This document shows positions 24,497 to 38,942 of a DNA stretch of 53,880 nt, piece by piece. This stretch comes from Promethearchaeota archaeon. GTDB taxonomy: Archaea; Asgardarchaeota; Lokiarchaeia; Sigyniarchaeales; SOKP01. Positions within the stretch are counted from its first letter, which is position 1. Each line of letters opens with the position of its first letter. The notes under the pieces are model-generated. The model searched no databases. It saw nothing but the letters and a program-made list of their open reading frames with translations, and was not told the DNA's origin. A program made the translations under genes and the position numbers. The stretch is taken from contig SDNY01000006.1 of NCBI GenBank assembly GCA_004524535.1, positions 1 through 53,880 on the forward strand, read 5' to 3'.

Positions 24497-25603
24497 TTAC
24501 TTGCAAAACAGATCATTTGCCATAATTTCAGCTGGTTTAAATATATCTGTGGCTCCATCCCATACTAATAAGATATTATGATAAAGGGTTTCAAATTTAT
24601 CAACAAAATATTTTAATACAACCTTAGGAAAATTTAGTTCTTCTGAAGTATACAATATACCAGATACATTTTTTGCTTGATAGATAATCACATTCTCTCC
24701 TTTCTTTTGTAAGACCGAAATAGCATTTCGTTCCTCACCAGTTTCACTTAGTTCGCGAAGCATTATATTTATGCTGGTAATTGCAGCAGAAATTAAATTT
24801 TCATCCATTAAATCTTTTCTTTCACTGAAAACTTTATAATAAATGCAAATACCCGCACTATTCACTAGAAAAAGAGCCTCTATTTTGTCTTGCCAATCAA
24901 ATTCAGAAAACGGAGGTAAGGTCAAGAAAAAATAAGATAATATTACGACAGAAAATAACTGAAGAATAGAACCAATCATTCGACCTTCAAGACCAAAAAT
25001 CGTTATTGCGACATCTGTAGTAAGCGCAAATCCAAAAACCATTAATAAAAGACCGCTAAAAAAGAAAATTCTATTTTTCTCTAACTTTTTCATAAATTTT
25101 ATCAAATATATAACAAAAAAAGATGAAAAACTTAACCAATATATATACGTTACCGCTTGAGTTATCCTAATATCTATGAAAAACAAGATCAAAAAAATTA
25201 TAGCACATATTGAAAAGATCGTTGTAAATACATATCTTTTAAATATAAACACAATATATTTTTCAACGCAGAAAAGAAAAATCGTCGTAAAAAAAATCAT
25301 TGTAAAATACCCTAAATTTAAGAAAAACGCTCTTGCACTTCCACTTCTCCAAATAAGAAAAGGAGATATAATATCATCTTCAACAAAGTAATTCCCTATA
25401 ATATAAAAACACCACATTAGTGAAAAGCCGAAAAATAACGAAAAATATCCGACATCTTGTAAATTTCTCAATGTTTTTTCTTGTTTGAAATATCGCACTA
25501 AAAAAATAAGACTAATTTCAAAACCCGTAATTATGAAAATCCATTCCATTATCAATAATGGTAATCTTATATCTCCACTTATTGGGAATTCTAAAAACAG
25601 CAT
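24497..25603 (-). CDS. Seven-helix membrane protein with cytoplasmic longin/roadblock-like domain (copy 3)
   Basis: A 368-residue protein from ATG 25603, chosen because AAGGTGA lies 8 bases upstream. Seven hydrophobic helices span residues about 10-230; with the N-terminus outside, the C-terminal 130 residues are cytoplasmic. That tail opens with EALFLVNSAGICIYYKVF, then a helix LISAAITSINIMLRELSE, strands VIIYQ and SGILYTSEELNF, and a closing helix FVDKFETLYHN. This is the strand-helix-strand order of longin/roadblock-type domains, which regulate small GTPases. It is nearly identical to its upstream neighbour (tandem duplication). The helical part may resemble the 7TM input module of some histidine kinases. 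A sensor role is inferred. Confidence 0.75.
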   Translation of the reverse strand: MLFLEFPISGDIRLPLLIMEWIFIITGFEISLIFLVRYFKQEKTLRNLQDVGYFSLFFGFSLMWCFYIIGNYFVEDDIISPFLIWRSGSARAFFLNLGYFTMIFFTTIFLFCVEKYIVFIFKRYVFTTIFSICAIIFLILFFIDIRITQAVTYIYWLSFSSFFVIYLIKFMKKLEKNRIFFFSGLLLMVFGFALTTDVAITIFGLEGRMIGSILQLFSVVILSYFFLTLPPFSEFDWQDKIEALFLVNSAGICIYYKVFSERKDLMDENLISAAITSINIMLRELSETGEERNAISVLQKKGENVIIYQAKNVSGILYTSEELNFPKVVLKYFVDKFETLYHNILLVWDGATDIFKPAEIMANDLFCK

Positions 25604-25655
25604 GTTAATATTCACCTTTTAGTATTATAGACTTTTTAACATAAAAATAAAAGAA

Positions 25656-26762
25656 TTACTTGCGAAATAGATCATCTGCCATAATTTCAGCTGGTTTAAA
25701 TATATCTGTGACTCCATCCCATTTTATTAAGATATTATGATAAAGAGTTTCAAATTTATCAACAAAATCTTTTAATACAACCTTAGGAAAATTTAGTTCT
25801 TCTGAAGTATACAATATACCAGATACAAGTTGTCCTTGATAGATAATCACATTTTCTCCTTTCTTTTGTAAGACCGAAATACCATGTTGATGCTGACCAG
25901 TTTCACTTAGTTCGTCAAGCATTATATTTATGCTGGTAATTGCGGCAGAAATTAAATTTTCATCCACTAAATCTTTTCTTTCACTGAAAACTTTATAATA
26001 AATGCAAATACCTGCATCATTTACTAGGAAAACAGCTTCTATTTTATCTTGCCAATCAAATTCAGAAAATGGTGGTAAGGTCAAAAAATAATAAGATAGT
26101 ACTACAACAGATAATAATTGAATAATAGCACCAATCATTCGACCCTCAAGACCGAAAACCGATATTAAGGCGTCTGTAGTAAGCCCAAATCCAAATATCA
26201 TTAAGAAAAATCCGCTAAAAAGCAATATCGTGGTTTTTCCTGACTTTTTTATAAATTTTATCAAATATATAGCAAAAAAAAATAAAAAACTACTCCAATA
26301 TATATATGTTACCGTTTGAGTTATCCTAATATCGATGAAAAACAAGATCGAAAACAATATGGCACATATTAAAAAGATCGTTGTAAATACATATTTTTTA
26401 AATAGAAATACAATATATTTTTCAACACATAAAAGATAAATCATCGTAAAAGAAATCATTGAAAAATACCCTAAATTTAAGAAAAATGCTCGTGCACTTC
26501 CACTTCTCCAAATAAGAAAGGGAGATACAATATTGTCTGGAACAAAGTAATCCCCTAAAATAAAAAAAAACCACATTAGTGAAAAGCCGAAAAATAACGA
26601 AAAATATCCGACATCTTGTAAATTTCTCAATGTTTTTTCTTGTTTGAAATATCGCACTAAAAAAATAAGACTAATTTCAAACCCCGTAGTTATGAAAATC
26701 CATTCCATTATCAATAATGGTAATCTTAAATCTCCACTTATTGGGAATTCTAAAAACAGCAT
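25656..26762 (-). CDS. Seven-helix membrane protein with cytoplasmic longin/roadblock-like domain (copy 2)
   Basis: Same length and layout as copy 3: seven helices then a 130-residue longin/roadblock-like tail (AVFLVNDAGICIYYKVF, YTSEELNFPKVVLKDFVDKF). The soluble tails and the first two helices of the two copies are almost the same, while helices 3 to 6 differ more, as if the membrane part were diversifying. The ATG at 26762 has only a weakened version of the upstream motif (AATGTGA instead of AGGTGA). It begins 14 bases after the stop of copy 1, so translation may be coupled. Confidence 0.75.
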   Translation of the reverse strand: MLFLEFPISGDLRLPLLIMEWIFITTGFEISLIFLVRYFKQEKTLRNLQDVGYFSLFFGFSLMWFFFILGDYFVPDNIVSPFLIWRSGSARAFFLNLGYFSMISFTMIYLLCVEKYIVFLFKKYVFTTIFLICAILFSILFFIDIRITQTVTYIYWSSFLFFFAIYLIKFIKKSGKTTILLFSGFFLMIFGFGLTTDALISVFGLEGRMIGAIIQLLSVVVLSYYFLTLPPFSEFDWQDKIEAVFLVNDAGICIYYKVFSERKDLVDENLISAAITSINIMLDELSETGQHQHGISVLQKKGENVIIYQGQLVSGILYTSEELNFPKVVLKDFVDKFETLYHNILIKWDGVTDIFKPAEIMADDLFRK

Positions 26763-26776
26763 GTTAATATTCACAT

Positions 26777-28235: not shown

Positions 28236-28398
28236 GCCAACGTGGCGTAGCCCGGAAAAAACTAGACTCTCCTAGTATTGGGTAGGAACGCACCAGATTC
28301 CTCGGAATTACCGATAAAGGTGAAACTGAAGATCTGGGTATCGAGAAAATTCGAGAGATTCTCTCGATTTCGATAAGGTTCAAATCCCTCCGTTGGCA
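28236..28398 (+). tRNA. tRNA-Arg (probably CCU) with three introns
   Basis: Acceptor GCCAACG/CGTTGGC, discriminator A73. Intron 1 (28257-28284, D-loop) has a helix CCCG/TGGG between 3-nt bulges GAA and TAG, and splicing gives AGCCCGGAGGA with A20, an Arg identity base. The anticodon stem CCAGA/TCTGG is split by about 28 nt (near 28303-28330), leaving loop TTCCTGA with anticodon CCU; moving the splice point by one base would give CCA (Trp), so the identity is not certain. Intron 3 (28346-28376) splits the T-stem and has ATCG/CGAT between bulges AGA and AAG; splicing gives GAGGG-TTCAAAT-CCCTC. The mature length would be 76 nt. Confidence 0.85.
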
Positions 28399-28407
28399 TT
28401 GGTCATT

Positions 28408-28437
28408 GGAGGTTTTAGTAAACCTCCTCTATTTTTT
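28408..28437. terminator. Bidirectional hairpin terminator
   Basis: GGAGGTTT (28408-28415) pairs perfectly with AAACCTCC (28420-28427) around a TAGT loop, followed by T6 at 28432-28437. It lies 10 bases after the tRNA-Arg gene and directly at the stop of the convergent small gene, so it can end transcription from both sides. Hairpin terminators are less usual in archaea than plain oligo-T. Confidence 0.6.
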
Positions 28438-38072: not shown

Positions 38073-38735
38073 ATGATCGATGCGAATAAAGCTGCTCCTC
38101 AGGTAGAATTTAAGGAAGTAAGGATAGTATGTCCTCAATGTAATAAGAGAAATGAATTAACTATTCCTAGTAAAATTATAAATCAAAGTAAACAATTAAC
38201 TACTGTATCAATACCGTCTGGATTAGTATGTGAACACACATTTCAAGCTTTTATAGATAAAAATTTTAAAGTAAGAGGCTATCAAAAAATTGATTACGAA
38301 TTATCAAAAATGGAATTCTTCGAAGGATCTGGTGAAGCATTAGAAGAAAATCATAAAAAAGGAGGGGAACTTAGTACTCTCACCACTTTGCCCATGTTTC
38401 AAGAAATAATTGACCTTTTAAGGAGCATGGTCGATGATAAAGAAATATTAGGAAGCGGTTTATTCACCCTCGAAGGAAATGTCATCTACTCTTCTCTACC
38501 TCATATGACTTTATCTAATACAATTAGAGAGTTTGAATCAAGAGAAAAAAATAAACTATCAAATATAAGAAGAATGCTACTTGAATTAGATGACGAACAA
38601 AAAGTTTGTTCGCAATATATGCACATCTTAGGAGTTAAATTCATTCTAGTTTTATTGTTCAACTCCGATATAAGGTTAGGAATGGGTATAGTGTTAATGT
38701 CCAACCTGGCTAAAAAAATTGAAGAGTTAACTTAA
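38073..38735 (+). CDS. Zinc-ribbon plus roadblock-like domain protein
   Basis: A 220-residue soluble protein. The N-terminal part (residues 10-75) has VCPQCNKRNELTIP and then LVCEHTFQAFIDKNFKVRGY: a CxxC pair and a C-x-H pair that can bind one zinc. The C-terminal part (about 105-220) has ILGSGLFTLEGNVIYSSLP, a central helix and VKFILVLLFNSD, a roadblock-like order. I recall this zinc-plus-roadblock combination as typical of Asgard genomes. Likely a GTPase-associated adaptor. Confidence 0.75.
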   Translation: MIDANKAAPQVEFKEVRIVCPQCNKRNELTIPSKIINQSKQLTTVSIPSGLVCEHTFQAFIDKNFKVRGYQKIDYELSKMEFFEGSGEALEENHKKGGELSTLTTLPMFQEIIDLLRSMVDDKEILGSGLFTLEGNVIYSSLPHMTLSNTIREFESREKNKLSNIRRMLLELDDEQKVCSQYMHILGVKFILVLLFNSDIRLGMGIVLMSNLAKKIEELT

Positions 38736-38838: not shown

Positions 38839-38942
38839 TGGGCCTGGCAGGATTCGAACCTGCGACTTTGGGTTTGATGGAAAAGCTCATCAAAAATCCC
38901 AGTCCGAAGCCGGGCACCCTATCCAGACTAGATTACAGGCCC
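38839..38942 (-). tRNA. tRNA-Arg (UCG) with an intron in the variable loop
   Basis: Acceptor GGGCCTG/CAGGCCC, discriminator A. The anticodon arm CCCGG-CTTCGGA-CTGGG is uninterrupted and gives UCG. A 29-nt intron (38867-38895) sits in the variable loop. It forms TTTGATG/CATCAAA with TGGG/CCCA between bulges ATT and AAG. Cutting after the second base of each bulge leaves variable loop ATGTC and T-stem GCAGG/CCTGC. The D-loop has A20 after GG, as expected for Arg. Mature length 75 nt. Confidence 0.93.

Follow-up and report, generated by a model that had tools for sequence, protein, structure and literature searches.

Positions 28236-28398 on the + strand of the DNA analyzed here, a 53,880-nucleotide stretch of a Lokiarchaeia genome (the window), almost certainly form a tRNA-Phe(GAA) gene with three bulge-helix-bulge (BHB) introns, which would be cut out by the tRNA-splicing endonuclease, with ligation of the exons to a normal tRNA. 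The original prediction for this region placed one tRNA gene with three introns between the same ends. Both points were borne out: the ends by family alignment and by ARAGORN on the spliced form, and the intron count by the finding that only removal of all three introns yields a tRNA recognized by ARAGORN. The identity proposed there, with the anticodon CCU (Arg) or CCA (Trp), was incorrect; uninterrupted CTGAAGA loops in relatives give the anticodon as GAA.

Identity of the Gene and Its Mature tRNA

The gene was resolved on the + strand by intron-tolerant alignment to the family consensus, as follows.

28236-28255, + strand: exon 1, positions 1-19 (5' half of the acceptor stem, 5' half of the D-stem, and start of the D-loop), from the consensus alignment; acceptor pairs 7/7
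28256-28285, + strand: intron 1, 30 nt, in the D-loop after position 19; central helix GCCC/GGGT 4/4; cuts between GG and A and between AG and G; site shared by 20/48 family genes
28286-28296, + strand: exon 2, positions 20-30, from the consensus alignment
28297-28324, + strand: intron 2, 28 nt, in the anticodon stem after position 30; central helix CACC/GGTG 4/4; cuts between AG and A and between AA and A; site shared by 24/48
28325-28345, + strand: exon 3, positions 31-51, with the anticodon GAA at 28328-28330; unbroken and the same in relatives, with 21 nt that match the consensus at 100%
28346-28376, + strand: intron 3, 31 nt, in the T-stem after position 51; central helix ATCG/CGAT 4/4, inner helix 4/4 scored pairs; site shared by 12/48
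28377-28398, + strand: exon 4, positions 52-73 (T-arm, 3' half of the acceptor stem, and A73), from the consensus alignment and ARAGORN
28408-28437, + strand: terminator-like hairpin and T-run just 3' of the tRNA-Phe gene, from a pattern scan

Joining of the exons gives a 74-nt product with all cloverleaf pairs (21/21), the anticodon GAA, G20, and A73, and ARAGORN identified the spliced sequence as tRNA-Phe(gaa). When the eight splicing states of the gene were compared, only the fully spliced one was called and the other seven remained uncalled; in the window, the unspliced gene was missed by both ARAGORN and Rfam (at the gathering threshold). Mature sequences are nearly invariant across the family tRNA-Phe genes, and this one matches the consensus at 72/74 positions (47 other family genes aligned). 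The two differences represent a single compensated acceptor pair, in which C6-G67 replaces the family G6-C67 with both sides changed. G20 and A73 are identity elements of tRNA-Phe, and both are present in 48/48 genes, the window gene included.

Chance was assessed with the same alignment. The intron-tolerant Phe alignment scored 101.0 at the gene; the highest scores elsewhere were 7.5 among 57 further pieces of the window and 4.0 among 40 shuffles of the gene region. The family tRNA-Phe genes counted below score 82.0-135.0, and chance scores under looser alignment settings reached 11.5 and 20.5. The terminator-like pattern was found twice in the scanned stretch (both strands) against 0.3 expected, and the hairpin at 28408-28437 probably functions as a terminator.

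Relatives' loci, retrieved with the draft spliced sequence, contain the anticodon arm CCAGA-CTGAAGA-TCTGG, and this arm is uninterrupted, with the loop CTGAAGA, in 21/48 family genes; the anticodon is therefore GAA, for phenylalanine. There is scarcely any chance that the middle intron is a different one and the gene instead a tRNA-Arg(CCU) or tRNA-Trp(CCA), as originally proposed. On paper, CCAGATTCCT and the stem strand downstream can be combined into a CCU loop, but 24/48 family genes have no intron at position 30, and 21 of those also have none at position 37 and show the loop CTGAAGA. Exon 3 of the window gene is identical over 21 nt to these uninterrupted relatives, and the gene also agrees with the Phe consensus in its D-loop and T-stem. 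The family anticodon arms, which read GAA, contradict an Arg or Trp identity. An A20 in the spliced D-loop had been taken to favor Arg, and this argument is lost once intron 1 is correctly placed, which restores the family D-loop AGCCCGGGA with G20. The wrong identity, the A20 argument, and the reported lack of a clean motif in the middle intron all stem from misplaced splice sites.

Splice Motifs of the Three Introns

Each of the three introns has a BHB motif with a fully paired 4-bp central helix and predicted cuts after the second base of each bulge. Inner-helix pairs number 3/4, 2/4, and 4/4 for introns 1, 2, and 3, and outer-helix pairs 2/3, 1/3, and 3/3, respectively. Relative to the strict hBHBh' form, introns 1 and 3 are near strict, and intron 2 is a relaxed BHB lacking an outer helix. 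A one-base shift gives an equal product for introns 1 and 2, and the boundaries of intron 3 are unambiguous by product. The predicted fold of the pre-tRNA has an energy of -60.8 kcal/mol, below 200/200 dinucleotide shuffles (z -4.91). When the entire transcript is folded to its energy minimum, introns 1 and 3 show their central helices, but intron 2 does not, the anticodon stem being formed in its place.

For the D-loop and T-stem introns, BHB motifs cut behind the second base of the bulge had been predicted, and the 4/4 central helices agree with this. The predicted sizes (about 28, 28, and 31 nt) were correct for introns 2 and 3 (28 and 31 nt) but not for intron 1, which is 30 nt. A 28-nt D-loop intron also has a 4-bp core by eye (CCCG/TGGG) and was rejected, as it leaves an 11-nt D-loop, AGCCCGGAGGA, compared to 9 nt in relatives. 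The middle intron had been assigned to the anticodon loop and described as lacking a clean motif. It instead interrupts the anticodon stem, following position 30, and its central helix CACC/GGTG is present and 4/4 paired, with the outer helix missing; the motif was not seen because the wrong anticodon had been chosen.

The same motif recurs across the family. Of 113 family introns, 65.5% have a central helix with all pairs formed, compared to 2.7% with shuffled introns, and at least 3/4 central pairs are found in 98.2%, compared to 20.9%. Boundaries in this control were set by sequence alignment, and the BHB chose only among shifts of equal product, for real and shuffled introns alike. The intron at site 30 is the most conserved, with a mean identity between genera of 63% against 34% for shuffled sequences. 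In its 17 distinct sequences, 98.0% of 153 cells are paired, and two-sided changes are seen in 5/9 pairs; shuffling gave a mean of 1.4 such pairs, and sliding gave 2 at most. Most of this covariation comes from the inner helix, and only one of the four central pairs varies, remaining paired.

Intron Gain and Loss across Relatives

A pattern search over the 65 genomes of the same family, together with further searches, yielded 48 tRNA-Phe genes that could be read, window gene included, in 46 genomes; two of the genes are identical, leaving 47 distinct sequences. The count leaves out several search matches with two mismatches. Also excluded beforehand were L045, L067, and L137, none of which scored above 10; L071 and L123, where no candidate emerged; the bacterial chance matches L103 and L115; and eight genes from other families (L125-L132), which scored 50-90.5 and showed zero or one intron in the alignment. 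Of these eight, two carry a 54-nt insertion without a good BHB. Loci in the named collection comprise 37 from Candidatus Lokiarchaeota or Lokiarchaeia metagenome-assembled genomes and two bacterial chance matches.

The 48 genes contain 113 introns of 20-63 nt (median 30), with 0-4 in each: two genes have none, ten have one, 13 have two, 15 have three, and eight have four. Ten sites are used, located after position 15 (17 genes), 19 (20), 22 (3), 30 (24), 37 (4), 51 (12), 52 (6), 53 (2), 58 (6), and 59 (19). One four-intron gene (L058, the same as L083) resides on a single-contig chromosome, CP070805.1. L031 (G011), counted with three introns, shows by eye a fourth of 28 nt after position 5, in the acceptor stem, with a 4/4 central helix, and is probably a ninth four-intron gene. 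The five genomes of the window genus display five arrangements (19/30/51, 19/30/53, 52, 15/30/59, and 22). Movement of introns between tRNAs was not supported, as the only blastn match that the 113 introns had beyond the Phe genes, among all loci, was 15 nt long (E = 0.009). At L035 and L064 (G017 and G039), G039 has two different tRNA-Phe genes, one identical to that of G017 and the other with a single intron; this reflects a second copy or contamination.

A readable tRNA-Phe was missing from 19/65 family genomes, eight of which are at least 92% complete, and ten of the 19 belong to one genus, g2 (G059, G061, G062, G064, G070, G071, G073, G075, G076, and G024). A search of these 19 and G058 with the mature sequence gave matches in 18/20 genomes, and among 30 loci aligned from the longer match list, the known G058 gene was the single Phe, with the rest judged to be other tRNAs or chance. 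A 3' exon search of ten genomes returned 14 places, all chance (best score 11.5). Synteny with a neighboring protein revealed no tRNA-Phe beside the orthologues that were read, the best score being 20.5 over 30 loci with a looser intron penalty. G068 contains a 5' tRNA-Phe fragment cut by the contig end. The missing genes may reflect heavier interruption, splitting, permutation, simple misses, or assembly gaps.

Source of tRNA-Phe in the Genome

Most likely, the genome has no source of tRNA-Phe other than the window gene, since a search of that genome with the mature consensus at E values up to 10 found no other Phe gene. Five matches were obtained, of which four are pieces of the window gene and one is a 20-nt T-arm stretch (G000:C106) that is not Phe, and all three inner boundaries were bridged only by the window gene's own exons. 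A pattern match elsewhere in the genome (G000:C56; L045) scored 10 and was rejected as a tRNA-Phe. The assembly is a metagenome-derived draft of 198 contigs, with an estimated 99.1% completeness and 4.4% contamination; the case is therefore strong but not final, as a second gene could lie outside the bin.

The original prediction had named an intact second copy as the sign of a pseudogene, and none was found. Three insertions in a 74-nt gene, in a genome that is only a draft, could be read as a decaying pseudogene with a working tRNA-Phe outside the assembly, but this is very unlikely: all 21 cloverleaf pairs are kept, including the two-sided change at 6-67, each insertion has a paired BHB core, and the genome search gave no other copy. 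Furthermore, 46/48 family genes are interrupted, making interruption the usual state in this family. Even less credible is intron removal that does not involve the tRNA-splicing endonuclease, for example by self-splicing. Known group I and group II introns are far longer than the 20-63 nt (median 30) seen here, BHB cores are present at the introns, and Rfam reported no match to a group I or II intron in the window.

Other tRNA genes and neighboring proteins were also noted. A tRNA-Arg (38839-38942, - strand; anticodon TCG by eye) has an insertion of ~30 nt between the anticodon arm and the T-arm and is found by Rfam but missed by ARAGORN. It is adjoined by a zinc-ribbon-like protein (38073-38735, + strand; by eye), and relatives of this protein (L230, L231, and L232) adjoin tRNA-Phe in other genera; tblastn matches occur in 34/78 Phe loci given, several of these loci being the same place. 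Elsewhere in the genome, L020 (G000:C174) is probably a tRNA-Leu(CAA), apparently with two introns around the anticodon (by eye). Two adjacent and very similar 372-aa membrane proteins (24497-25615 and 25656-26774, - strand) represent a tandem duplication.

Splicing Machinery

The genome encodes two tRNA_int_endo genes, L001 (alpha) and L002 (beta). Within the class, at least one match was found in 82/83 genomes and at least two in 68/83. The alpha-like L001 has Aeropyrum pernix 3p1z as its best PDB match and retains the catalytic Tyr, His, and Lys; in L002, the one beta protein that was read, DSAKYL stands in the place of the catalytic His. The alpha motif GISKPR aligns with K44-P45-R46 of the A. 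pernix Crenarchaea-specific loop (CSL), and K-P-R/K is present in 30/30 lokiarchaeal alpha subunits read among those listed (29 from the same family and one from the same order). Passages of a published comparison define the CSL by a lysine in the loop, with P or V as the next residue and K or R after it, and tie the loop to endonuclease activity and broad specificity (PMC12397907). The original prediction called for an endonuclease of broad specificity; this agrees at the sequence level with the alpha and beta subunits and the CSL lysine motif in alpha, which suggest that the lokiarchaeal enzyme may be a broadly specific (alpha beta)2 tetramer. RtcB is encoded once in the genome.

Exons, cloverleaf, central helices, intron gain and loss, endonuclease subunits, and RtcB were all read at the level of sequence, and transcription, cutting, and ligation of the pre-tRNA-Phe in the cell would then proceed as follows. 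The primary transcript would form a local BHB or relaxed BHB-like motif at each intron, the alpha and beta tRNA-splicing endonuclease would cut after the second base of each bulge, and RtcB or another ligase would join the exons to give the normal 74-nt tRNA-Phe.

Discussion

Multi-intron tRNAs were described in the original prediction as known mostly from some Thermoproteota, the phylum to which the hyperthermophilic Thermoproteales belong. This view is outdated: passages on the Asgard Atabeyarchaeia and Freyarchaeia report introns in 92-95% of tRNA genes, and several in over half (PMC11291895), so the kind of gene described here is already known from other Asgard classes. Those genes share Asgard hosts, multiple introns, and non-canonical positions with the lokiarchaeal tRNA-Phe. 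They differ in belonging to other classes, and the main-text passages concerned give no per-gene maximum, endonuclease analysis, or comparison of one tRNA across relatives (PMC11291895). Thermoproteales such as Pyrobaculum calidifontis likewise have multi-intron genes with BHB cores and non-canonical sites, and the relevant passages state that archaeal tRNA genes contain up to three introns each (PMC8450103). In contrast, the present gene comes from a lokiarchaeon, and four introns in this tRNA are found in eight, probably nine, of its relatives. The A. pernix (alpha beta)2 endonuclease (PDB 3p1z, 3ajv; PMC12397907) resembles the lokiarchaeal proteins in its separate alpha and beta genes, the alpha Tyr, His, and Lys, and the KPR loop. 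However, its loop was termed Crenarchaea-specific, the main text of PMC12397907 names neither Asgard nor Lokiarch-, and the lokiarchaeal enzyme is a prediction from its genes. No study of lokiarchaeal tRNA introns was recognized in the open-access literature, judged by titles and passages, and no title there described four introns in an archaeal tRNA. Four introns per tRNA gene and a CSL-type loop in Lokiarchaeia are possibly new; the four-intron genes, the fast turnover of sites, and a CSL-type loop outside Crenarchaeota were unexpected.

A joint reading of these results is tentative and, on present evidence, rather doubtful. It holds that tRNA interruption in Lokiarchaeia goes beyond "up to three," with a single 74-nt tRNA interrupted by as many as four introns and containing more intron than exon; that sites are gained and lost within a genus and the mature tRNA stays almost unchanged; that the endonuclease has a "Crenarchaea-specific" loop; and that in the eight genomes at least 92% complete, tRNA-Phe may be in five or more exons, permuted, or split.

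Since eukaryotes have no closer known prokaryotic relatives than the Asgard archaea, a putative alpha-beta endonuclease with a CSL-type loop in this group bears on whether the loop arose repeatedly or is old. The loops compared in passages of PMC12397907 were proposed to have arisen several times. Asgard genomes will seem to be without essential tRNAs, as standard finders miss genes such as this one. At least ten intron sites in one tRNA, across 46 close genomes, provide a natural series for studying intron gain and loss. In the archaeon that carries the window gene, this essential tRNA would have to be cut and rejoined several times for protein synthesis.
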